Below are positions 5,419 to 43,834 of a DNA stretch of 64,000 bases, one piece after another (the stretch's first letter is position 1; every line of letters starts with the position of its first letter). Both the position numbers and the translations under genes were made by a program. Origin of the DNA: Solen grandis. Its lineage: Eukaryota > Mollusca > Bivalvia > Adapedonta > Solenidae. A model generated the notes under the pieces. It saw nothing but the letters and a program-made list of their open reading frames with translations, was not told the origin of the DNA and made no database searches. Location of the stretch: positions 3,502,350-3,566,349 of the forward strand of contig CM037785.1 of NCBI GenBank assembly GCA_021229015.1, in the 5' to 3' direction.

Positions 5419-6584
5419 GCGAATGTAACATTTTACTAGATTTTCTATATAGACAAAGAAAGAAAAATTAAACTGTTAAATAGATTTTTTAAACTTTGCA
5501 TGATTATAGAGAATCATGAAAGAAACATTTTTATGGCAAATAAATTGGGGGTTACCGTCCTACTTTTTGAGTTATCTGCTCCTGAATGTAATATTTTAGC
5601 ACTTTTAGGCCATATTCAAGGGCAGATAACTCAAATAATGGCAAACAACAACCTCATAAGGTTTAAAAATCAATGTTCGGTACTTAATTCCCTGTCTCTG
5701 TACACAATTTGTAGATATTCTATGCGACAGATTTTATACTATAATCAATCATGCTAAATATATATCAATTTTACGAAAACGTGGCTAAACAATTTTATAT
5801 ATTGTATACAATCCGAACTTAGAAGTGATACAATTATCATATCCTTCTTTTTTAATTTATTTTTATATACTCATAGCTCAAAATATTAATGAACATACCA
5901 AATTTTTGAAAGCGTATTGTATGTTACATATTGAAAGTACATTTATGGGGCTTGCTTTTTCATTTGCAGCATTTTATTGTTGAATAAATTTATAAAAATA
6001 TGAACACTTACCATAGCGTTAAGGAACCAATAATCAGTAAATGAAACAAGTTCTTAATATCAAACGTCAGTTAACTTTAGGACATGATCCTAAAATACTT
6101 AAATACCTATACAAATCATTCATAAAAAAATAAAAAGAAAGATCCTATTGGGATTTGAACCTGTGAATGCCAGATTCAAAGTAGCCGATATAAATTTTAG
6201 CCTATTCATGGAAGTAATTTTTTAGAGTCACATGACTCTACTGAAAATAGAATTACTTAGTGAATTGGGTGATGCTCTAAATGTCGATTAAATAAACAAT
6301 TAGTTCGATCAAAGCCTTATAAATAACAGAAATTGGCAGCTTATTCTTTGCGCACGGTCCCCAAAACTTCAACGAGACCCGGACGAGATTGGAATTCGAA
6401 AGTGTTCATTTTTAATTTTAAACGTATCAAGGAAAAGTTCCCAGGTGTTATTTGAATTAATATAGTATTGGTATGGTTATTTTGTTTAGTTGCTGATTTG
6501 TTCCACTGCTTTTGACATAAACAGACGCCAGTGAGAGTGATCGACCACACGGCGAGACGCAGTTAAGGGAATCAATCAGTAATT
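5419..6584. other. Intergenic stretch with a weak tRNA-like block
   Basis: Mostly featureless AT-rich DNA. On the minus strand near 6145-6215, GGTTCAAATCCC matches an RNA polymerase III B box. No convincing cloverleaf or A box is present, so it may be an old tRNA-derived SINE head. Confidence 0.3.
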
Positions 6585-7625
6585 AGACCACGGCTACTTT
6601 ATTCCACCAATCACAGGCAAGCATAGCCGTTGTCTATATCGTATAGACCACGGCCTAATTTATTCCACCAATCACAGGCAAACAAAGCCGTTGTCTATAT
6701 CGTATAGACCACGGCCTACTTTATTCCACCAATCACAGGCAAACATAGCCGTTGTCTATATCGTATAGACCACGGCCTACTTTATTCCACCAATCACAGG
6801 CAAACAAAGCCGTTGTCTATATCGTTTAGACCACGGCCTACTTTATTTCACCAATCACAGGCAAACAAAGCCGTTGTCTATATCGTATAGACCACGGCCT
6901 ACTTTATTCCACCAATCACAGGCAAGCATAGCCGTTGTCTATATCGTATAGACCACGGCCTACTTTATTCCACCAATCACAGGCAAACAAAGCCGTTGTC
7001 TATATCGTATAGACCACGGCCTACTTTATTCCACCAATCACAGGCAAACAAAGCCGTTGTCTATATCGTATAGACCACGGCCTACTTTATTTCACCAATC
7101 ACAGGCAAACAAAGCCGTTGTCTATATCGTATAGACCACGGCCTACTTTATTCCACCAATCACAGGCAAGCATAGCCGTTGTCTATATCGTATAGACCAC
7201 GGCCTACTTTATTCCACCAATCACAGGCAAGCATAGCCGTTGTCTATATCGTATAGACCACGGCCTACTTTATTCCACCAATCACAGGCAAGCATAGCCG
7301 TTGTCTATATCGTATAGACCACGGCCTACTTTATTCCACCAATCACAGGCAAGCATAGCCGTTGTCTATATCGTTTAGACCACGGCCTACTTTATTTCAC
7401 CAATCACAGGCAAACAAAGCCGTTGTCTATATCGTATAGACCACGGCCTACTTTATTCCACCAATCACAGGCAAGCATAGCCGTTGTCTATATCGTATAG
7501 ACCACGGCCTACTTTATTCCACCAATCACAGGCAAACAAAGCCGTTGTCTATATCGTATAGACCACGGCCTACTTTATTTCACCAATCACAGGCAAGCAT
7601 AGCCGTTGTCTATATCGTATAGACC
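6585..7625 (+). repeat. 61-bp satellite array, 17 copies
   Basis: The unit runs from AGACCACGGCCTACTTTATT through CCACCAATCACAGGCAA to GCCGTTGTCTATATCGTAT. It repeats every 61 bases from 6585 to about 7621, with one base missing in the first unit. Copies differ at only a few sites (CAAACA/CAAGCA/CAAACAAAG, TTCC/TTTC, CGTAT/CGTTT), so the array is young or homogenised. Each unit contains a CCAAT pentamer. Each unit-to-unit junction forms a hairpin: GCCGTTGTCTATA pairs with TATAGACCACGGC around a TCG loop, with 12 of 13 pairs matched. Confidence 0.95.
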
Positions 7626-10947: not shown

Positions 10948-11203
10948 AAAATTCACACTTTTTTCTGTAAATTTTTTACTTTAATCGGTAAAATTCAGAC
11001 TTTTTTTCTGTAAAATTTACACATTAATCTGTAAATTCTACAGATTAAACTGTAAAATTCCCACAGATTAATGTGCAAATTTTCAGAAAAAAGTGTGAAT
11101 TTTACCGATTAAAGTGTAAAATTTACAGAAAAAAGTGTGAATTTTACAGTTTAAACTGTAAATTTTACAGATTAATCTGTAAATTTTACAGATTAAAGTG
11201 TCA
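10948..11203. repeat. Self-complementary array: large palindrome of ACAGATTAATCTGT-type modules
   Basis: Bases 10948-11037 and about 11055-11142 form arms of roughly 85-90 bases that are inverse complements with few mismatches. They share CACACTTTTTTCTGTAAATT, CTTTAATCGGTAAAATTC and ACACATTAATCTGTAAAT. The rest is built of 18-20-base modules that are themselves palindromes, for example ACAGTTTAAACTGT and ACAGATTAATCTGT. No coding capacity. Confidence 0.85.
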
Positions 11204-14079: not shown

Positions 14080-15345
14080 ATGACGTAATTTTCGGGACTT
14101 TTTGCGCGTCTTACGTTACGGCATTCGTGCTAATTTACAGCTCATAGATTCAATCGTCGGGGGTTTTTTTATGAATTTTTAATAATTATCGCTTAAATAT
14201 CAATGACGTCATAACTACGTGACTCAACAAATTCCTTGAGTTATGCACCACTTTAGTCGATATTCTGCTGAAAATTTAATTAAGGTTGCATCAAAACTCA
14301 TGACGATAGATCGCGAACACTTTCTAAAATGTGAATGATTTTTATAGTTGTAATGATGTCATAATCACGTGACTTAAGAAACTATTTTAAATGCTAGCAG
14401 ATGTTCATGTAACATTCTGTTAATCACAAAATGAAAGAAAAACAACATTAGACGGCTTCGAGAATGCGAATAAGTTTGATTCAATTTTTCAATCAGATAT
14501 TCCATGAAACATGAATATCTGCCATGTTTGATGACGTGTTCCGTTTAAATTTTAATAGTTTTTGAACGTCTCAAGTTTCAACATTTCACAAATTTAAAAT
14601 TTGCGATTTTATATGAATTTTAATAAGACTTACTCCAATATGCATGACGTCATAACCACGTAACAAAACAAAAATTTCTTGCAGTATGCAACGTATCAGT
14701 TGTAACTACACCAATCGTGAAACTTTGAGCCTGACTCAAAAATAATGACGGCAGAGCGAGAGAAATCTTTAAAAAGGAATACTTTTGTCTTTTCAATGAA
14801 GTCATAACCACGTGACTTAAGAGAGAAACTTTCAGAAATATAAAGTAGACGTCGGGGTTGATATGCTGTCCAATGCTCATGCTTCTTACTCACCAGGGGC
14901 ATTTGAAACATTAAAATGTATATGGTTAAGATTGCTTTTTGTCTTTTTAATGACGTCATAATCATCGGAGAAAATTCTTGAGAAAACAGAAAGTAGACAT
15001 CTACGCCGATAGCTTGTCCAATGTCCATGCTTCAAAAGTTCGAAACTGAGTTTGCTATAAAATCTAAATCTTTTCGCATTTGGAAATTTGAATGCCAGTG
15101 TGCACATCTACATCCAACCATACATCTTTTGTGATAATTTTAAGACAATCTGACCAGAATTGAAGGCTCTAAAGCGCAAACAATCTTTTGAAGTTGACAC
15201 AACATCTGATGTCATTTGCGTCATTGAAAGTTGAAAATAATTGAATTTAAAAACTTTTTTACGAGGAAATTTAATTTTTATGTTGCTTAGTCATTGGCAA
15301 CATATTGAAATTTACTCTTGAAATAGGTTAGAAAAAAAAGAATAA
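14080..15345 (-). mobile_element. Copy E0 of the CTAG/TTATT repeat family, 5' part
   Basis: Read on the minus strand from 15345 leftwards, this starts TTATTCTTTTTTTTC directly after the CTAG that ends copy E1. It contains the family module TTCTGGTCAGATTGTCTTAA, as in plus-strand copies near 42160. The far part (14200-15030) is a degenerate tandem repeat with a period near 150 bases. Each unit carries TGACGTCATAA followed by CACGTGAC or a variant (14202, 14352, 14642, 14798, 14949). Overlapping short minus-strand frames there are echoes of the repeat period, not genes. Confidence 0.5.
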
Positions 15346-16419
15346 CTAGATTCCGTTTGCGTTTCGAAAAACGACAAGGCTTTCTGCTCTGCAAACCATA
15401 TTAAACCTGACCATACTCATTGATATGCACCATCTGTGAAAAAATAAGAAAATTCGTCCAGAATTGAGAGCTGAAGATGAAATTTGTGACGTCAAAAGAC
15501 GTCATATGAAAATGAAAGTCATTGCATTCAAAGGGGAATACGGAGCTTTGCATCCTAATATAATTGAATGATGTTGGCAAACCAGGAACCCTTTTTAAAA
15601 TGAACCACAAAAAAGTATTTAAAAAAATGGCGGCTAACAATGGCATAGAATTAACTATCACTAGTCCTCTTTACAAGCAAAATACGAATACAAGGTTCCA
15701 CCAAATACATGTATTCCATTCTTGGTTTTTCGTTGAATTTAAGGGAGAATAGAGATAGAGCATTTAACATATTAAAGCAGCACATTATACCTTTTATGTA
15801 GCAGAAATAAACTATGGAAACGGTTTTTCCGAAATTCTTGTTTTCCATGTAACTTTCTGATATGATGTCCTATTTCAAAACCTAGTTACTCTTAAAAAGG
15901 TCTTATATGTTTCACATTTCACTTGCTTTAGGTTTAGACCTATCTGTAACGGCTCTTTGAGATATAAACTGTTAAACCTCGAGAAAACAGCAAAAATAGG
16001 CAAAAAATGTTTATGCCAATTACTACTTCCCGAATGATAACTGAAATTAATGGTCCGATCATTAAAATATGCATACCATTGGAGCAGCATTGCATCAAGC
16101 TATAAATAATGTTCTGAAAGATGTTTTGAAAACTAAAAGATTCTTTAAAAAAACAACAAGTAAATGATTGGGAACAACTGCAAAGGTGCATGAAAGAACG
16201 GTTTGGATTCATTCTTATTTTTCATTTAACTTCCTTAGATGATGGATGTATGATTTTAAAAAGCTAGGTACCGTTAAAAAGGTCTTCAAATTCTCAACAT
16301 TCACTTTTTATGTATGGACGTATCTTAAACGGCTTTTTAGATATTGACGTTTAAACCTCGAGAAAACGGCAAAAATATGTTTCGTTTTCTCTGTGTATAT
16401 TTTTTATATTTATATTTGA

Positions 16420-17224
16420 TGTAAATCTTTAAAATTAAAAAAATCTTTAGAACCATCAGGAATCACTCTACAAATAATGTTCCGACTCTGATTTACAAAA
16501 ATCAATAATTTTGGAGAATTGAGCCGTTATATCTGCTTAAGGTATAAATATTTCTTTTTTCTGCCATAAATCAACTGATTCAAACCTGATCTTCAAAAAC
16601 TAAATATCATCTGAAAGCTCTTTCAAAGGACTACTAAGAATATTTACATTGCTTACTGTTTACAGAGTTCCAGATAACGGGCGTATCTGTGTAAATTACG
16701 AATGGAATATCACCAAATACGCACGTATTTTAAGTTCCATGGGTAACAAATACGCATACATTTTGGTGTTTCCTCATCCGTTCACGATATCATGCGTGTC
16801 TCCGTTTTTAAATTACACACACACACAAAATCTTAGAAAGTTTCTCGGAAAACCGTTTCTATTTTTAGAACTAACAGTTATGGTTCCCGTTTTCTACATA
16901 GCTTCACTTTTCGCCTTAATCAGAAACCAAATCGTTTTATGTAATGAAAACGCCAGTAATTTCGAAATGAATTAAAATAAAAGCTCTTTTGACGCAGACT
17001 ATGTAGATGAAAAAATTGTCGTCTCAAAAAAAGTTGTCTGCTTTTTTTTCAAGCCAACTTCGGCAAAAAAATTACAGCCGAAAATATCGTCAAAGGTATT
17101 CTGGACGGTGCAATTTCTAATGTCATTGCATCTACTACAAAAAAAGCATGACGGTACAAAACTGAGCGATAAAACTTTAAAAGCTTGAAAATCAAATTTC
17201 CCGTGGTTGTCATCTTCCAATTAT
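16420..17224. other. Interior of copy E1, no gene recognised
   Basis: The longest plus-strand frame here (16649-16975, 108 codons) has no recognisable domain, lies in repeat sequence and shows no splice or promoter context. I do not call it a gene. Confidence 0.4.
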
Positions 17225-19517: not shown

Positions 19518-19706
19518 AGTAGTGAGTTTCGAGTCTGAAAAAGTGAGTTTCGAGTCAAGAAAAAGTGAGTTTCGAGTTAAAAAGTGAGTTTCGAGTTTAA
19601 AAAAAAGAGTGAGTTTCGAGTCTGAAAAAATGAGTTTCGAGTTAAAAAAAATGAGTTTCGAGTCTGAAATAGTGAGTTTCGAGTTTAAAAAAACTGAGTT
19701 TCGAGT
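19518..19706 (-). repeat. Minisatellite array, 9 units of about 20-22 bp (GTGAGTTTCGAGT)
   Basis: Nine units of AGTGAGTTTCGAGT plus a variable A-rich spacer of 5-11 bases. It is the reverse complement of the array at 22647-22895, about 3 kb away. Unit length varies (19-25), so the open minus-strand frame is not preserved by selection. Confidence 0.9.
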
Positions 19707-20740
19707 CAGAACAGATGACAACTAAGTGTATAGACTGTACAGTAAATGTTTGGCGACTGTGTATATATTTAACAACATTTGTGTGTTTTAATTGCTTTTT
19801 ACGGTTTTAAGTATATTTAAAAAAATCGGGAAACAGTTGCTTATATCAGCAGTGAGTTAAATATTTATATTACTCTGACATGACGGATCGTTTATCCCGG
19901 TAAACTCAAATAGTCAAGTCTATATCCCGGGTAACTGTAAATAAAAGTACGGAACATACACTCAGAAATTCCTGTAAATGGTTAAAATGCGGCATACTTC
20001 ATTCCGAAATAAACCGTTTTAAAATGGTGCCGTTTTTTCTCCACATATTTTCATAATTTATTGGTTTGATATAAGAAATATCACTTGTCAGCACAAAAAT
20101 TAACCTGTCACTTACAACTTTTCGGTATCGTCTCCTTACTCTTCTTTTGTTTTATTATTTTTCTTTTACCTTCTGGTCGAAGTTTACACATCGGCGAAAC
20201 ACGAATGTCTTATTAGTTTTGTTTATCGACAGGGAAGTAGTGTACAATTAAGTATCATTCTTGAAATAGACATTTTATTGTGCCAGTGTTCCATTGTTGT
20301 ATTTTGTTTGTTAACTTTTGCTGTATGCCAACATCACTGACATCGTGACACTCACTGACACGCATTCTAAACACAAACATCAAAATTATCATTCGCATTA
20401 AAATAAAGATCACAAAAAAAGCATGGGTAACATGACTAAAAATTTAGCAATCATCTGCATGAAATTGTATCAAACGATCCAGATTTTAACTATAAATAAC
20501 TTATATGCGAAGATCCAGTTCCAGCAATTTGATACCAGGGGTGGGGGTGGGGGCAAACTCTGAAAATCACAGGACATAGTTGGGGAAGGGAGTCCACCCT
20601 TTATTATGTATATTTTATGCATAATATCCAAATCTCAGGGGATCTGGACCTCTGGATCTCCGCATGACTTAGTTTACTATATTTCTGATCACTATAATTT
20701 CAGCAAAATATTTATGGTGAATCAGGTGGTGAAAAAATTG
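19707..20740. other. Intergenic, one possible SINE-A tail scrap
   Basis: Near 19899-19922 the text GGTAAACTCAAATAGTCAAG equals the SINE-A tail seen at 21486-21506. Nothing else was recognised. Confidence 0.35.
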
Positions 20741-21253: not shown

Positions 21254-21541
21254 CAAGATTGTTCAGGGGCTTCCGTGGCAGAGAGGTTAAAGTCGCTGAC
21301 TTTAACACTCACTCAGCATCTCACCGCGTGGGTTCGAATTCCGGCAGGGTCATTCGGATTTTCATGTGAGGAAGCCTTCCAGCTGGCTTGCGGTAGGTCG
21401 AGGGTTCTGCACGGAGGCATTCGGGGTCTTCCTCCACCAGTAATTAGCTGGACGTCGCTATATGACTGAAATACTGATGAAGCGACGGTAAACTCAAATA
21501 GTCAAGACAGCTATTAAGTTAAGTCAACTCAAGATTGTTCA
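21254..21541 (+). mobile_element. SINE-A copy with 12-bp target-site duplication
   Basis: The head GGCTTCCGTGGCAGAGAGGT (A box) and GGGTTCGAATTCCGG (B box) is Leu/Ser-tRNA-like. The body reads TTCATGTGAGGAAGCCTTCC, GCTGGCTTGCGGTAGGTCG and AGCTGGACGTCGCTATATGA, with the tail GACGGTAAACTCAAATAGTC. The 12-base CAAGATTGTTCA flanks it exactly at 21254-21265 and 21530-21541. SINEs are copied by LINE enzymes; this is an intact, fairly young insertion. Confidence 0.9.
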
Positions 21542-22646: not shown

Positions 22647-22895
22647 GTACTCGAAACTCACTTTTTCCTGACTCGAAACTCACTTATTATTACTCGAAAC
22701 TCACTTTTTTCGACTCGAAACTCACTTATTCCGACTCGAAACTCACTTTTTCCGATTCGAAACTTACCTTTTCTGATCCGAAACTCACTTTTGCAACTCG
22801 AAACTCACTTTTTCCGACTCGAAACTCACTTTTTCCAACTCGAAACTCACTTTTTGCAACTAGAAACTCACCATTTCTAACTCGAAACTCACTAC
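22647..22895 (+). repeat. Minisatellite array, 12 units of 21 bp (ACTCGAAACTCACTTTTTC)
   Basis: Twelve units of ACTCGAAACTCACTTTTTCC with small changes; the period is 20-21 bases. Because 21 is a multiple of three, a frame stays open (repeats of DSKLTFS or TRNSLFP), but it has no start context of its own. It lies about 140 bases upstream of the glycosyltransferase exon and is the inverse of the array at 19518-19706. Confidence 0.92.
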
Positions 22896-23033
22896 ATATT
22901 TCAGAACATTCATTGTTTTAGTTTTTACTTTCTTTAAACTTATTTTGGTATGTTAAAAATATATTACTACATAAAAATATAAATGACACGATATAATTAT
23001 TATCAGTAAAGATAATTTGATTTAATATCAAAA

Positions 23034-25394
23034 ATGTCTATACTAGAAAAAATAGTATATAAACACATATGTATCATTCCAGGGACAATCATATCTCGTA
23101 CAATCGACTCATCGTTGTTTGTAAGGGAATTAATTCAGTCTGACGTCAAAACAAATTTGATATCCTGGGACTTCAGCAGCAAAGTCAAATGTCCAGAGAT
23201 AGCATTCAGTCAATATCCTTTGAACAGGGAGCAACTTTACTTTTACTGTGACCCAAAGCCTAACATTCTATATAGCATGACTAATTCAAGTTCTAAGGTC
23301 ATGGCTGTAGATTTCGGGGACACATGCTTGAAGAAAGTAATTGACGTTTACTGCTCAGATGATAAGCCTGTTCCTAATGTCGTGCAATATGTTTGGTACG
23401 GAAACAACGAAATTAGCTTCTTTCACTTTCTAAGTTTTCTCAGCGCTGTTCGTTTTATGAAGCCATGCCTAATGGTGTTCCAAGGGGAACATCTTCCGAA
23501 AGGTAAATACTGGGACTTTTTTATTCGAGTGTTTCCAAGAGTAGTGCATGCTAGACGGACATTGGTAAAGGAAATCTATGGCCAGAAACTAGCATTTCCA
23601 GAGCATGGAGCCGATGTCATGAGAATGGAAGGACTCTGCGGTATATCTACTTTATTATCTTAACATGGTGGACCGAAACATACCCATCAGAAAAAGTATT
23701 GTTTGTCTTTGTTTGCATTAACGTCCCACCGACAGTATTTTAGTCATTTGGAGACGATGTCTCCTTGAGACAGATATAGTGCTGCCACACTGCAGTATCA
23801 CGTCGTAGCCATATGGCATGATACCACACCCAGTCACATTATCCTGACACCGGGCCAACCAGTCCTGCAGCTACCCTTATATATAAGTATAGTAGACAAT
23901 TTGGACATACATATTTATTTAATTAGAAAAGCTACCTTATAGAAATATAAATATGTTTACATTATTTTATTTCTGTGTAAATTGATTAACTGATTACCTC
24001 ACATACAATATCGGAGTTATCAGACCGGGTATCAGTATCATAGCAGAATGGTGTTAAATGTCAATCAGTTAGAGTCCATCTTCATTCAATTGATAAAAGT
24101 GTTATTCGCATATTTATATATTTTATAAATGAATTCAGTTCACAGCAAAGAATAATTCCATTTTTACGTATTCTGTGATTTAGCCATACCATGGTTTTGC
24201 AATATTACTGAAACGCTGTATGTGCATTAGCTATTTTTTTTCCACAGAATATGGCGGAGTCTACCTTGATACAGACTAATTTTTTTTCACAGAATATGGC
24301 GGAGTTTATCTTGATACAGACTTATTTTTTTCACAGAATATGGTGGAGTTTACCTTGATACAGACTAATTTTTTTTCACAGAATATGGCGGAGTTTACCT
24401 TGATACAGACTAATTTTTTTTCACAGAATATGGCGGAGTTTATCTTGATACAGACTTATTTTTTTCACAGAATATGGTGGAGTTTACCTTGATACAGACT
24501 AATTTTTTTTCACAGAATATGGTGGAGTTTACCTTGATACAGACTAATTTTTTTTCACAGAATATGGTGGAGTTTACCTTGATACAGACTTATTTTTTTC
24601 ACAGAATATGGCGGAGTCTACCTTGATACAGACTTATTTTTTTCACAGAATATGGCGGAGTTTACCTTGATACAGACTTATTTTTTTCACAGAATATGGC
24701 GGAGTTTACCTTGATACAGACTTATTTTTTTCACAGAATATGGCGGAGTTTACCTTGATACAGACTTATTTTTTTCACAGAATATGGCAGAGTTTACCTT
24801 GATACAGACTTATTTTTTTCACAGAATATGGCGGAGTTTACCTTGATACAGACTGATACAGACTTATTTTTTTCACAGAATATGGCGGAGTTTATCTTGA
24901 TACAGACTTATTTTTTCACAGAATATGGCGGAGTTTACCTTGATACAGACTTATTTTTGCTGAGATCCATCAACAATCTCAGAAAGTTTCGCTGCACACT
25001 TAGCCACGAAATTCCGAACGCATTTTCGAATGGATTCATCATGGCTGAGAGGAATTCATCCTTTTTGAAATTGTGGCATGAAGGTTACAAGAACTATTCA
25101 AACGAATGGGGCTATAATTCCCTCTTTTATCCGTATCATCTCTACGAAATGCACAAGGATTTGCTTCACGTCGAAGGGTTCAAATTCGTGCGGCCAAACT
25201 ATGAACATTTAGAGCAGATTTTCGATGTCAATTATGATTGGTCCACAAACTTTGGGATTCACCTGTATGTCAGGTTCTATAACAGACCGTTCAACGAGAC
25301 TATCATTAGAAATCTTAATGCTTCATTAGGGGCGGTTTCTAGACACATACTGTTTGGGAACAAGGAACTGTGTCTTCCAGACAATAACACATAG
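23034..25394 (+). CDS. Glycosyltransferase with DXD motif (Gly_transf_sug-like), two exons: 23034-23640 and 24922-25394
   Basis: This is probably a Golgi-type enzyme moving a sugar from a nucleotide sugar to a glycan; donor and acceptor are unknown. Exon 1 (202 codons plus one base) has PVPNVVQYVWYG at residues 112-123 and ISFFHFLSFLSAVRF at 127-141. ADVMRMEGL at 193-201 is the usual helix before the active site. Exon 2 opens EYGGVYLDTD, with the metal-binding DXD at D210-D212, then LSHEIPNAFSNGFIMAERNS. Splicing is exact: CTCTGCG|GTATAT at 23640/23641 and TTTTTTCACAG|AATATG at 24921/24922, phase 1. The total is 359 residues plus stop. The Met at 23034 follows an in-frame stop at 23013. A good acceptor (CATTCCAG, ending 23082) lies inside the start of this exon, so a missing upstream exon could supply the N-terminus. 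No convincing membrane anchor is seen in the modelled start, although type II anchors are usual in the family. The intron holds a SINE-B and the acceptor array. Confidence 0.88.
23700..23895 (-). mobile_element. SINE-B copy in the glycosyltransferase intron
   Basis: It reads inverted from the tail TTAACGTCCCACCGACAGTA through GCCACACTGCAGTATCACGT, CATGATACCACACCCAGTCA and CCTGACACCGGGCCAACC to CTACCCTTATATATAAG. The tRNA-like head is missing. Confidence 0.85.
23896..24234 (+). other. Intron sequence without other features
   Basis: AT-rich intron between the SINE-B copy and the acceptor array; nothing recognised. Confidence 0.6.
24235..24952 (+). repeat. Tandem array of 16 splice-acceptor plus DXD-codon units (44-45 bp)
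   Basis: The unit is a T-run, CACAG, then AATATGGCGGAGTTTACCTT and GATACAGACTTA. Copies start (AATATGG) at 24248, 24292, 24337, 24381, 24427, 24471, 24515, 24561, 24605, 24649, 24693, 24737, 24781, 24825, 24879 and 24922. The last copy is the real start of exon 2. Every copy therefore carries a polypyrimidine tract, an AG and the codons for EYGGVYLDTD. Copies 1, 3, 4, 6 and 7 have TAA directly after the DXD codons; the others have TTA. Copy 14 has an extra 10-base GATACAGACT. The unit is not a multiple of three, so use of any upstream acceptor meets a stop within about two units. Confidence 0.95.
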
Positions 25395-25491: not shown

Positions 25492-26484
25492 CTCATACTT
25501 GAAAAAGATCAGTTTATAGACATTGGATGAGTTTGCTTCAGACAAACAGCTACTATGATATTTTTCTCCAATAAAAATAGCTTCATTTAACTTGCTTTTC
25601 CCCTTAGATAATTAATCAGTTAATGTGTAAGGCACTAATGCATATTGTAACTAGAAGGGAGCTCCTATTAATTGGTTTCTCTCCAAGAGAAACGTGAGTT
25701 TGGGTATATATACGTTAAAGTATTTCGTAAAAATATTAAGTATGTTTTACCAAACAATTATCTGGACATTTTTTTTTTTTCAATTCTTTTTACAATTGTC
25801 TTGGTCTATTTGACTACTACAATCCGCTTGATTACTTCAAAGACATTGTCAGTATCAGAAAACATTTTTATCAATATAGTCCGTCGACAAAAAATCGACG
25901 TATTTCTTTATCTAAATTATTGTTATCATTCAATGTGTTTTCTTTACTTGAAATCCAGATAAAACTTTACACAAATACTTATTCATCTAAGATTTTTGGC
26001 ATTGTTAGGACTATATTTGCCGAATGTAACTGCATCAAGTCAAAGTGGTCGCACCTTTATTATTATGCTGTGAGACTTTAGTATTGATTTCTTCATCAAT
26101 TTTAATGACATAAATCACTTATGAAGCGGAAATTTTGTCATACACATGAGAATATAAACATTAGACATATCTGCAATAAACAGGATGTGAATGTGATCAT
26201 TTGAATCAAAACAACATACAGGTTTAAAAATAATGTGCACAAATATTAAACCTGGATCCCTTCCAGATAAGTTTTATTAGTAAATCAAAATTAAATATTT
26301 TACAGCAATTTTGTTTTATAAATATAATTTATAAAGCCATTTAACTAGAAATAAAGATATTAAAAATTAATGATATAAGGTCATGATTGTTATTACAATG
26401 CAATAAGCATAATATGAAAACATACTAGGAATTTCCATACTAAATATTGGATACCGCAAAACTTGTGTACTTTGCTGGTGTTTA
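25491..26484. other. Downstream of the glycosyltransferase, nothing recognised
   Basis: No further exon or repeat is supported. An AATAAAA at about 25570 could be a polyadenylation signal. CATCAATTTTAATGACATAA near 26095 loosely resembles 55200, but the link is weak. Confidence 0.4.
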
Positions 26485-26798
26485 TCTTCACAGCCATCTG
26501 TATATACTCGGTGGCCGCCACGGAAGCAGGAGAATGTCGTGAGTTCGATCCATGTCTGCATCATACCAATGTCGTAAAGATAGTACTGGTTTAGCTCTCT
26601 TGCTTGGTGCTCTCATATAAGGGTAGTTCCAGGACTGGTTGGCCTGGTGTCAGGATAATGTGACTGGGCATGTATCATGCCACATGTCTACTGTGTGATA
26701 CTGCAGTGTGGCAACACTATATCTGTCTCAAGTGGACATAGTCTCCAAATGACTGAAATACTGTCGGTGGGGCGTTAAATCAAACAAATAAACAAACA
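26485..26798 (+). mobile_element. SINE-B copy, nearly full length
   Basis: A tRNA-like head (GTGGCCGCCACGGAAGCAGG, B box GAGTTCGATCC) is followed by CATATAAGGGTAGTTCCAGG, TGGCCTGGTGTCAGGATAAT and GATACTGCAGTGTGGC. The tail AAATGACTGAAATACTGTCG leads to GGGGCGTTAAATCAAACAAA and ends in an A/C-rich run at 26798. Confidence 0.85.
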
Positions 26799-27466
26799 TA
26801 TACTGAAAAGCTTCTGTATGAAATAGAACTCAATCTGTTCCTTGAAGCTTAAAGTTTCTCAAAGAAGAACGAGTTTTACAATTATTTCTAGTGCAAACAA
26901 AATGGCGTGCGCAAAAATATGAAATTTAATATGCAAGTGTCAAAATTAACGCAAGTTCCAAAAAGGGGCTATTTATTTCCGGTTTTACATTGGAGTGAAA
27001 AATACAAAAAAGTGGGTTTTTTTTTTTCGATTTTCAATCGAATATATAGAAAGAATCAAGACAATCAGTATAACAGATTTTTAGATAATGGAATAAGAGA
27101 AGTGCGTATTCAATTATAAGAAAAACAACATTAAAACGATTTAATAAAAAAAAACTATTATCCGAAAACAGTGGCTGTCATTGACAATGATTGCTTTCTG
27201 TATTAATGATTTACTTTTTCATTGCAAGCATGTTACGAACATACATATATTGTGTATTGTATTGCAATATATGTATTGACTTGTATAATAGTGGAATTTC
27301 ATAAATCTGCCAATAAAAATAAATAAATGAGAAAATCAACTGCAACGTTTTTTCTAACTTCTTTTGAATACCCCTCGTATATAAAGATGCTAAATAAATA
27401 AATAATCGAAATTGTAAACCCCTCGTATATATACACGTGAAATTATTCCTAGATGCTATAACGGCT

Positions 27467-30912: not shown

Positions 30913-32104
30913 ATGGCATTCGCAATCGGGAAAATTGATGTGTTTGATAACACAGAGTCCTGGCAGTGTTATAAAGAGACTAGACCAGTATTTCATTGTT
31001 AATGATGTAGGTGACGAGAAAAAGGTCCCAGCGTTACTTGCCCTGATTGGTCCAACGACATACCAAACTCTGCGTGATTTAACTGCGCCTACAATTCCCA
31101 AAGACAAGAGTTTTGATTTTTTGTGTCAGTAACTGTCAAAACATTTCAATCCGGAACCACTGATAATAGCTGAGCGATTCAGATTTCACAAGCGTGATCA
31201 AAAACCCGATGAGTCAATCAAAGATTTTAATGTTAGTTTGAGGAAGTTATCGGAACATTGTAATTTTGGTGGTAGTTTGGCCGACGCTCTGAGAGATAGG
31301 TTTGTGTGTGGGTTGAAGAGTGAAGCAATCCAGAGGAAACTGTTAACAGAGAAAGATCTTACTTATGAGACTGCTGTCAAGGTTGCAATTTCCATGGAAT
31401 CGGCTACGAAAGATGTCCAAGAACTGCATGGCAAATCTGAACATGTGCATAAGTTGAAATTTAAGCAATCAAAAGCCCCTCGACAGAAACAAGACCAGAA
31501 ACAAAAGCAAAAACGACCACTGAATCAAGACAAACAGAAATGTAGTCACTGTCATCGAACAAATCATGCATCAAATGACTGTAGATTTAAAAATGCTACA
31601 TGCCATAACTGTAAGGTGAAAGGACACATTATTCCAGCTTGTCCCCGCAAACAGAAAGTGCATCATCTTGCTGAAACTGACGACATTGATGAAACGTGTT
31701 TGTTCACCTTGTTTAGCGAAGAAGACCATGAGAAACATTCTGAAAAACTGAATAGCATGAAAGAAAGTATAAGAGACAAATCTAAAGATGTGATTTGGGT
31801 TTCTCCGAAAATTAATGGTAAGACTTTGCGAATGGAATTGGATACAGGAGCAGGAGTTTCAGTGATGTCAAAAGCTGACTTTGAGAGATTATTTCCTAGG
31901 AAGCCCTTGCTGCCAACTAGTCTCACATTAAAAACCTACAGTGGGGAAGTCATAAAACCATGTGGGGTGATGAAGTGCAAAGTGGAACTGAATGATCGGA
32001 TAGAGGTGCTAGACATGTATATAGTAGACAATGATAACAGAATGGTTGAATGTGCTAAAATTAAATTGGTCATCAATCAAAGTACTGAAAGTACAGAATG
32101 CTGA
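30913..32104 (+). pseudogene. Gypsy gag-protease, broken
   Basis: Gag makes the particle; the protease cuts the polyprotein. The likely start is ATG 30913 (MAFAIGKIDVFD). One base appears lost near 30975, shifting the frame, after which KRLDQYFIVNDVGDEKKVPA follows. A stop at 31129-31131 (TAA after DFLCQ) interrupts it. It continues to 32104. Two CX2CX4HX4C zinc knuckles lie at 31541-31642, and the aspartic-protease site is DTGAGVSVMS at 31841. The frame ends at TGA 32102-32104 and overlaps the RT frame, which is in another phase. This could be a mutation or a shift used in translation. The segment that usually links protease and RT (a GRDWL-like motif) is only partly present. Confidence 0.85.
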
Positions 32105-34846
32105 GGAGATAGTGAAGGAACTGAAGGTTAAGTACAAGAATGTTTTCAGTAAAGAACTTGGTACACTGAAAGGTGTAAAAGCACATCTGACACTCAAAGA
32201 AAATGCTTCTCCAAAATTTGTGAAAAGTAGGAGCGTCCCATTCGCACTGAAGCCCAAAATAGAGGAAGAGCTTGATAAAATGGTTGACAATGGAGTTCTC
32301 AAGAAAGTAACCCATAGCAACTGGGCCACACCCATTGTGCCGGTACCTAAGCAAAATGGTATCAGAATTTGTGGAGACTTCAAAATTACAGTGAATCCCC
32401 AACTTGTGATAGATCAACATCCATTACCGAGAATAGAGGATATTTTTGCCTCGTTAGGAAAGGGAAAGAAATTCACCAAGATTGATCTGAAAAACGCTTA
32501 CCTTCAGATGGAGGTAGACGATGAAATGCAAGAGCTATTGACTATAAGTACGCACAAAGGCTTATACAGATATAATCGCCTTATGTTCGGAATAGCCTCG
32601 GCGCCAGCAATTTTTCAGAGGACAATAGAACAAATAATGGCTGATGTACCAGGTATCAACATTATCTTGGATGATATGATAATTACTGGAGACACTGATG
32701 AGCAGCACTTGAAAAACGCTGAGCAAGCTTTGCAAAAGCTCGATGAGCACAATTTACGTGTCAATCCTGACAAGTGTGAGTTTTTCAAGGATCAGGTTAA
32801 ATTCTGTGGACATATAGTGGATGGAGATGGGTTACACAAAACCCAGGACAAGATCAAGGCCATTGTCGAATGTCCAGAGATCACCAATGTTCGAGAATTG
32901 AGGTCATTCTTGGGTTTAGTACAGTACTACGCCAGATTTTTGCCGAATCTATCAGCAGTAGTTTACCCTCTGAATCAGCTCCTGAAGAAAAATGTTGAGT
33001 GGCAGTGGACTGATGAATGTGAAAAGGCACTTCAAACGGTAAAAAGCATGATCACATCAGACTTGGTGCTAATGAACTATGACCCTTCGTTACCGTTGCT
33101 TCTGGCTTGTGATGCTAGTTCGCGTGGACTTGGCGCAGTGATAAGTCACGTCTTACCTGAGAAAACTGAGAGGCCGATCGCTTTCGCGTCACGAAGTTTG
33201 AATGATGCCGAGAAAAACTATAGCCAGATTGACAAAGAAGCTTTAGCGCTAGTGTGGGGTGTAAAGAAATTCAGTTCATACTTGTATGGGAATAAATTCA
33301 CCCTGGTTACAGACCATAAGCCACTATTGTCTATTTTCAGTCCAAAGAAAGGGTTAAATGCTACCACAGGTGCGCGTCTTCAGAGATACAGTCTGTTTTT
33401 GGCTGGGTACAATTACGATATTCGGTATAAGAGTACCACAGCACATGGCAACTGTGACAGTCTTTCCAGGCTACCGTTAAGTGAAACTGAAATCCACAGC
33501 CTGGATGTCACTGATGACTTTGTGAATTCCCTGATGGACAACTTACCAGTCACTTGTACGCAAATAGCCAACAGCACGCGAAACGACAAAGTCCTGTCAC
33601 AAGTGTTTGAGTATGTGTCCAAAGGATGGATTGGTATGAGCGAGACTAGTACTGAACTCAGACCGTTTTTCAACAAACGCTTGGAATTGTCTCTGCATCA
33701 AGGCTGTGTGATGTGGGGAACACGAGTGATAGTTCCGAACAGTCTGCAGAAAGTAGTGCTTTCCGAATTACATGAAGGCCATGTCGGTGTGGTAAAGATG
33801 AAAGCCCTAGCTCGAAGTTATGTTTGGTGGCCTGCCATTGACGCGGACATAGAAAGCATGGCTAAGAGTTGCAGCGGCTGTGTTGTAAACAAGGCAAATC
33901 CTCCAGAATCACCGATACATCCATGGGAGTTTCCGACAAAACCATGGACCAGAGTTCATATTGACTTTGCAGGTCCCTTTATGGGTTACATGTACTTTGT
34001 TCTGGTGGACGCTTACTCAAAGTGGCCAATCATTAAGATCATGAAGAACACTACAGCCGCACAGACCCTTGAAGTAATGAGAGCAGTGTTTGCGGACTAT
34101 GGTGTGTGTGACGAAATTGTAAGCGACAATGGTCCACAATTCGTCAGTGAAGAGTTTTCACATTTTCTCCGCATTAATGGTGTTAAGCATATCAGAAGTG
34201 CACCATATCATCCACGTACCAACGGCTTTTAAAGCAAGCGTTGAAAGCCGCGAAAAATGATCCTGGAACAATCCAAGCAAAAGTGTCAAAATTCCTGATC
34301 CAGTATTGCAATGCTGAGCATGCAACGACCAAAGAGTCGCCCGCAATGTTGTTTCTCGGGCGATCACTCTCTACAAGACTCGACAAGGTGAAACCGAGCT
34401 TGGAGAACCGAGTCAAACGTGAGCAGTCCAAGATGGTTCGCTCTATGCGCGATCGCGAGTTTAGTGTCGGGGAAAGCGTAGCTGTACGTGATTACAGAAA
34501 CGGACTGAACAAGTGGGTATCGGGCGTGATACATGAGAAAACTGGTCCGGTATCATATAAAGTTGAGATTGAGCCCGGTGTGAATTGGCGTCGACACGCT
34601 GATCAAATCCGCGAATCATCGGTAGACATCCCTCCAAGAGCATCGTTGTTGGGAGATGTTACCCCTCCCACTATGGAGAACATTCCGTATGCAGCAGTGT
34701 CGGTGCCCGAAGTTCCAGCAACAGCCTCATCACCTGTATGCGCCAGGAAATGTTCTATCATGACACCAACAAAGCCACCGGACAAAGCTGTTGAACGTCG
34801 CTATCCAGAGAGAGTCCGTAAAAAGCCTGACAAACTTGATTTGTAA
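32031..34846 (+). pseudogene. Gypsy pol (RT, RNase H, integrase), broken in integrase
   Basis: Pol copies RNA into DNA and inserts it. The 733-codon frame (32031-34232) holds RT, with D152 in FTKIDL and the LDDM active site at 213-216 (usually Y/F-x-DD). RNase H begins LLACDASSRGLGA with D361, followed by TDHKPLLSIF. The integrase has the HHCC finger (H581, H584, C614, C617), D645 (IDFAGPF) and D699 (SDNGPQF). The frame stops at TAA after HPRTNGF, two residues before the third catalytic glutamate should come (35 after D699). A deletion of about 25 bases at 34230 removes it. The C-terminus resumes in another frame (LKQALKAAKND) and runs to 34846 (YPERVRKKPDKLDL), as in K02A2.6-like elements. 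Confidence 0.9.
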
Positions 34847-42788: not shown

Positions 42789-43834
42789 TTTCATGACTTT
42801 GAAGATAATCCTTATGATTTTTTTCAGAATTAACATACTAAGATGTGAAGTGATGTATGCTGCAAGAGATATTTGTTTAGTCCTGTGATTATGACGTCAT
42901 GGATATTAAAGCAATATATCATAAAATAGGCTAATTGCTGTATGAACTTTAAACATGCACGAATGCCGTAGCTTACATTGTGCAAAAGGTCCTGAAAATC
43001 TCAAGAGATTACATCAGCAAACATAGTAGATATTCATGTTTTTCGGATAAGGGCTTCTATGTGAAATCTAGCAGTATGATGAAAGAAAATTAAACGGTTA
43101 TTGGGTTGCCCGAAATAAATTGCATGAGGCGGTATTTTTCCAAGGTTACGATTTATATATCTGGCCTTGATAACATCGAGGCATGACAAGATGCAACAGC
43201 TACGTGCACAAATAGGGAATATAGACTTTGTCGGCAGTATGTTGTCTATATCGGTTTAAGATCTGTGGATAAACCGATTTATTTCATACTTGCAATTCAA
43301 ATAATGGACGTTTATATCCTGTTGTATACGGAGCGAAAACGATATTATTTGGGTAAACAAGATAGTCGGATCGACAGCTGGACAATATACCTATATTAAA
43401 CACCTTGTACCCACCAGGGTCGCAACTGGCACCTGGACTCCCAGCCAGATAGTGCGTAACATCCAGAACTTTCTAGCTACGCCCTTGTATATCTTTCACC
43501 AAAATGTATAAAGTAAGACAACTGGTATAGTATATTTATATTCTATTAACTATGACAACTGGCTTTCACCCACGCAAGCCGGGTATTATTACGGCATCGT
43601 ATTAACTTCATTAAACGGGCTACGTGACCCTCCGGTGTTGTTCTGGAGATAAGTCGGAATGGGTCGAAAATATATCTATGGCGCATAGTAATGATTGTGG
43701 TAAAAAGTGTTTCCTAAAAGACATATGAGACATAAATCAACCGTTGTTGATAATAAAACATGTATGCTAGATTTTCCCACAGACACTATTGCAATCATTT
43801 TTAGATTTCGTCTACATCAGACAGACACTGCGAT
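42789..43834. other. Intergenic, nothing firm
   Basis: ATGACGTCATGG near 42892 may belong to the repeat block. TATGTTGTCTATATCGG near 43240 resembles the hairpin part of the 61-bp satellite unit. No gene. Confidence 0.4.

Follow-up and report, generated by a model that had tools for sequence, protein, structure and literature searches.

According to the excerpts of PMC3087553 on which we draw, the 3′ end of an intron and the 5′ part of exon 2 are tandemly duplicated in a minisatellite-like manner in the amphioxus globin gene BflGb6; the same excerpts cite earlier 'mirages' in the Adh3 gene, which are unstable in length, also somatically. Mirage clusters homogenise and change their length, many of their units carry splice signals, and the mechanism that generates them is called unclear there. 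RT-PCR together with the Adh3 data suggested that regular splicing is unaffected by mirages (PMC3087553). More splice-site repeats in lancelet were reported in a paper on PGBD5; in the portion available to us, it states that the Adh and troponin C mirages give no aberrant mRNAs, and its authors suggest that accurate splicing is undisturbed by the PGBD5 repeats (PMC3902484). Ordinary RT-PCR could miss rare or decayed products, and low-level use of additional acceptors may therefore be compatible with the amphioxus reports. No mollusc mirage was found in our literature searches; the bivalve array described here would extend mirages beyond cephalochordates.

The window, which is the whole 64,000-nucleotide stretch of Solen grandis DNA that was analyzed (C9:3502350-3566349 of the 1.32-Gb genome), contains one mirage-type minisatellite of 16 tandem units on the plus strand (24232-24950). 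As judged from unit tables and TRF, the array is 719 bp in length; its units are 43–54 bp, mostly 44 or 45 bp, in size. TRF reported one single array (24236-24958) with a period of 44, 16.1 copies, 93% matches and a score of 1192. Each unit is composed of a T-run, a CACAG acceptor and the codons for EYGGVYLDTD (EYGRVYLDTD in copy 13) of a PF04488 glycosyltransferase. The junction CACAG/AATATGG occurs 16 times, with the exon-side starts running from 24248 to 24922; the spacings between successive units are 45, 44, 45, 45, 44, 45, 45, 44, 44, 44, 44, 44, 44, 54 and 43 bp. The original prediction of 16 copies of an acceptor fused to DXD codons is thus borne out by both the unit count and TRF. Three other arrays in the window have a period of at least 20 and at least 10 copies by TRF (6584-7625, 10948-11190 and 22649-22893). 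The first is a 61-bp minisatellite of 17 copies with 96% match; the last and one more array at 19521-19718 are built of 21-bp units, are located upstream of the gene in opposite orientation, and are ∼84% alike.

The repeat spans the intron-exon boundary, and the boundary CACAG, followed by A in every copy, is kept in all 16 units, so that each unit carries the AG splice signal. One 16-nt acceptor sequence, CTTATTTTTTTCACAG, is common to nine of the 16 copies and another, TAATTTTTTTTCACAG, to five; the acceptors of copies 1 and 16 are unique. Some sequence variants are private to one unit and others are shared; GTCTACC, for example, is present only in units 1 and 9. Units 10–12 are identical to each other, unit 14 contains one 10-bp internal duplication, and, as judged by eye, units 2-3-4 resemble units 5-6-7, forming a higher-order repeat of three units. 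By eye, the interior of the array is therefore homogenised and the edges are less so, the pattern described for mirages in the excerpts of PMC3087553. Among the exonic variants, GGC/GGT, GTC/GTT and TAC/TAT are synonymous, whereas the Gly to Arg change in copy 13 is not; four kinds of change being too few, synonymous bias among them was dropped as a line of evidence.

The array interrupts a gene of the PF04488 (Gly_transf_sug) type. Exon B (about 23083-23640, plus strand) is defined by its open frame (23016-23663) and by paralogues of the same genome, with ATTCCAG/GGACA assumed as its acceptor; one in-frame ATG is located upstream of that acceptor at 23034. The intron starts with the donor GCG/GTATAT (23640/23641), which is of phase 1 and is followed after splicing by the EYGGVYLDTD codons. 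Its position is common to the paralogues, and it measures 607 nt to the first acceptor (23641-24247) and 1281 nt to the last. Inside the intron, at about 23695-23882, lies one dispersed repeat with an inverted copy at 26615-26804 (88%). Exon C, with its 359-aa spliced frame, starts at the last acceptor and ends with the natural stop (24922-25394, plus strand); due to this stop and an AATAAA at 25570, it is probably the terminal exon. The spliced product scores 38.6 bits against PF04488 (cut-off 23; E 1.8e-9) over residues 178–224, a segment that spans the junction and includes the DXD motif as YLDTD. Across 88–91% of its length, the product is 42–44% identical to four relatives (P0001-P0004), which are also PF04488 proteins; named relatives include proteins of the bivalves Ruditapes philippinarum (42%) and Mactra antiquata (44%). 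The predicted structure of P0002, which is of low confidence (mean pLDDT 55.3), matched 42 PDB chains (E ≤ 0.001); the matches listed are glycosyltransferases, for example bacterial effectors, LgtC and glycogenin, and their TM-scores are low.

The 23 kb upstream of the gene yielded no convincing first exon. One membrane-anchor exon candidate, taken from the paralogue C12a, matched the minus strand of the window at 14516-14280 and 13629-13592; it was rejected because the region also matches 42871-43089 and 14736-14822 and looks like a dispersed repeat. Further downstream, at 31133-34846, the window contains long open frames in three overlapping plus-strand frames, which resemble the gag and pol frames of retrotransposons of the Ty3/gypsy type. 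A mosaic on C17 (C17:18377000-18386999) joins distant pieces of the window (15009-17097, 21272-21400, 25240-25362 and 25520-25655, including part of exon C), mostly with 87–95% identity.

Splicing of the donor at 23640 to each of the copies was performed in silico, and product lengths were counted from the ATG at 23034. Copies 1, 3, 4, 6, 7 and 14 lead to a stop directly after DTD (212 aa); copies 2 and 5 give 268 aa, copies 8–12 give 238 aa, and copy 15 gives 223 aa. Copy 16 (24922) reads through to the natural stop, yielding 359 aa. Copy 13 (24781-24824, plus strand) also keeps the frame; spliced at 24781, it gives 406 aa, 47 residues more than copy 16, with YGR in place of YGG. It was proposed earlier that the last copy alone keeps the frame and that all other copies truncate the protein. 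The former is wrong; the latter holds for 14 of the 16 copies (212–268 aa), but not for copy 13.

YTNAY is the branch-point consensus, and a match to it does not prove its use. In copies 2–16, a TTGAT that fits this consensus is supplied by exon codons 22–33 nt before the AG, whereas the 45 nt before the AG of copy 1 contain no YTNAY. Since most copies share their acceptor sequence, local sequence cannot explain the choice among most of them. The only GT of the unit, in GGAGTTTAC, looks like a poor donor when compared with the donor consensus, and no new introns are thus predicted inside the array. Exon-junction-dependent nonsense-mediated decay needs an exon junction downstream of the premature stop. 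The premature stops fall in what seems to be the last exon, and classical nonsense-mediated decay is therefore not expected; given the terminal appearance of exon C, truncated protein would be a likelier by-product than decay.

A 106-base array query was compared with the genome. It matched nine places, of which eight overlap within the array; the ninth is a single-copy match of 48 bases at C11:43501799-43501846. Within the reach of this search, in which simple repeats are skipped and scoring is limited to the best candidates, the array was found at this locus only. Stops and frameshifts make the C11 sister a pseudogene; its junction is single-copy. Its left flank is near-identical to the first unit of the window, reading GTGCATTAGCTATTTTTT and then CACAG/AATATGGCGGAGTCTACC, GTCTACC included; compared to C11, the window has two extra T and one extra C. 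The right flank of C11 resembles the sequence after the last unit of the window. A protein search of the genome gave 27 matches, many of which are exon pieces. A single acceptor was present in all nine other junctions read (C11, C12a, C12b, C12c, C17, L025, L027, L030 and L035); judged from coordinates, two more loci (L020 and L031) have no intron at this position. TRF analysis of 21 of the loci detected arrays at other places; no other exon C acceptor carried one. In the exon C tree, the window and C11 are joined with a support of 1.0; because of this grouping and the single acceptors at the other junctions, we took a single acceptor as the ancestral state.

Some of the paralogues have repeats or histories of their own. 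On C7, the paralogue L025 contains about five 44-bp copies (L025:1301-1525, that is C7:34766512-34766736, minus strand) of its last codons and stop, RHIVFGNKELCKM plus stop codon, the stop of the reading frame being that of the first copy; this makes it another boundary minisatellite of this glycosyltransferase gene family. The paralogue at C17:11790432 has a 50-bp unit repeated nine times just downstream of exon C (L019:2108-2564). Over 520 bp, exon B of the window (23117-23636) is 96.3% identical to C17:11787948-11788467; the two gene copies share only 77% identity in exon C. The block starts and ends within the exon, which fits gene conversion. Conversion with C17 may thus have refreshed exon B, and the exon trees differ. 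Gene conversion was rejected as the source of the array, because the C17 copy with the 96.3% identical exon B has a single acceptor.

Taken together, these observations make it probable that the array is a mirage-type minisatellite that grew from a single-acceptor ancestor by duplication at the word TATTTTT, followed by expansion. This word is the longest one common to the end of the intron, ahead of copy 1, and to the start of the exon beyond copy 16, and its two positions coincide with both edges of the array. The left TATTTTT (24232-24238, plus strand) starts the first polypyrimidine tract; the right one (24952-24958, plus strand) lies in exon codons (LeuPheLeu), where the C11 sister has CTTATCTTTACTG. 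Among 5000 dinucleotide shuffles applied to the exon start, 555 gave a shared word of at least 7, and TATTTTT therefore carries weight only through its position at both edges. Shared words are at most 4 or 5 long in the five paralogue junctions that were compared (4 in C11); TATTTTT may be younger than the C11 split, or it may have been lost in C11.

The ancestor of the window gene copy would have had one acceptor, with TATTTTT common to its T-rich tract and to the T-rich exon codons. Slipped-strand events or unequal exchange between the two TATTTTT would then have duplicated the acceptor and DXD codons in between, and the duplicates would have expanded to 16 units in the manner of a minisatellite. 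By hand count, the first unit predicted from such a duplication is 46 bp, while the observed ones are 43–45 bp except for one of 54 bp; small later changes in the T-run and in one C are thus needed. We consider the TATTTTT seed plausible, not proven. The later growth is shown by the similarity of units 2-3-4 and 5-6-7, the identity of units 10–12 and the internal duplication of unit 14. Working mRNA would come from an in-frame acceptor, most likely the last one, as suggested by comparison with the amphioxus mirages; use of the remaining copies would lead to wasted transcripts or truncated protein, and the array would have no selected function. Of the options in the original prediction, a minisatellite that was seeded on a splice junction is the one favoured, on account of the single-copy C11 junction, the near-identical flanks and the 7-mer at both edges. 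The other option, in which array length sets the rate of truncated or decay-prone transcripts, is weakened by the amphioxus precedents and, as regards decay, also by the probably terminal position of exon C.

We consider it unlikely, albeit worth weighing, that the gene is dead or silent, in which case the locus would be untranscribed and the array, being without effect, would have grown because nothing removed it. The copy closest to the window gene is the C11 pseudogene; the sole upstream exon candidate (minus strand, 14516-13592) looks like a dispersed repeat. In a large database, no protein exceeded 50% identity, which the absence of this species there may explain. Against this, exons B and C of the window are open and their splice sites are intact, and the substitution pattern differs from that of C11. 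When the window is compared with the intact paralogue C12a, exon B has a dN/dS of 0.22 and exon C one of 0.18. Branch-specific changes, nonsynonymous (N) and synonymous (S), were counted by simple parsimony with bases treated separately, C12a and C12b as outgroups and a neutral share of 0.80. For exon C, the window branch has 5 N and 10 S (p 0.00012 versus neutrality), whereas the C11 branch has 19 N and 10 S (p 0.051). When C17 was added as the third outgroup, the exon C counts are 2 N and 7 S for the window (p 0.00032) and 17 N and 6 S for C11. For exon B, which includes at codon 64 one state inferred through a pseudogene stop, the counts are 11 N and 13 S in the window (p 0.00026) and 23 N and 5 S in C11 (p 0.7). 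Possible conversion by C17 weakens the exon B test but not that of exon C, which is therefore the cleaner of the two. As far as substitution counts can tell, the branch of the window gene shows purifying selection and that of C11 little; by this measure, constraint acted on the window gene during at least some of the period after the C11 split. Recent loss of the gene is possible, since the constraint is an average across the entire branch and the upstream sequence yielded no convincing exon.

Far less probable is that the array acts as a splicing rheostat, its length setting the share of productive mRNA (two of the 16 acceptors being in frame) and varying among individuals or cells, heritably or somatically. 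If so, unstable copy number would make individuals or cells differ in the dose of a glycan-making enzyme or, alternatively, in the amount of a truncated protein that ends at the DXD motif and is spared by decay. The conservation of CACAG/A in every copy and the branch-point-like motifs of copies 2–16 are in line with such a function, as is the length instability of amphioxus mirages, somatic as well in Adh3, in the excerpts of PMC3087553. However, amphioxus mirages are reported there and in the available portion of PMC3902484 as leaving splicing undisturbed, the array is absent from all nine other junctions read, and a young, homogenised array would retain its AGs even in the absence of selection. 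On our analysis, a rheostat function is not favoured. That the true allele has one or few units and the array is an assembly artefact seems very improbable, as units with private and shared variants in a higher-order pattern, one of them (unit 14) with its own 10-bp duplication, make up an array of just 719 bp.

Under the preferred reading of a mirage grown from a single acceptor, the single-copy sister and the 7-mer at both edges provide a concrete, testable origin for mirages, and polypyrimidine tracts that face T-rich codons are suggested as their seeds. In addition, 16 near-identical 3′ splice sites before one exon constitute a natural experiment on spliceosomal choice among equal acceptors.

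The structure is not of a new kind, because tandem repeats of the intron-exon boundary were already published as "mirages" in amphioxus. The earlier description of the array as unusual is right as to frequency, since such arrays are rare, but not as to structure, which has a name and published amphioxus cases. As far as the excerpts of PMC3087553 go, the amphioxus mirages (Adh3 and the globins BflGb6 and BflGb9) are, like the present array, minisatellite-like tandem duplications over an intron-exon boundary, and in BflGb6, as here, the intron 3′ end and the 5′ part of the next exon are repeated. They differ in dimensions: the bivalve array has 16 units of 44–45 bp, whereas BflGb6 has units of 150–160 bp, six and three of them in two haplotypes, and the Adh3 units range from 10 to 72 bp (PMC3087553). 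The lancelet PGBD5 repeats over splice sites are imperfect and have fewer copies (2 or 7; 3 or 6) in the portion of PMC3902484 available; the copy number here is higher than in the lancelet cases described in these parts of the two papers. In the potato RdRp gene, as described in the excerpts of PMC4974935, a tandem duplication likewise runs across the intron 3′ end and the next exon and copied the branch site, the tract and the AG; different from our array, it is one duplication (two-copy) and gave a new intron through a cryptic GT donor. Whereas the mechanism is called unclear in the excerpts of PMC3087553, at the present locus the single-copy paralogue and the word at the array edges point to a seed.
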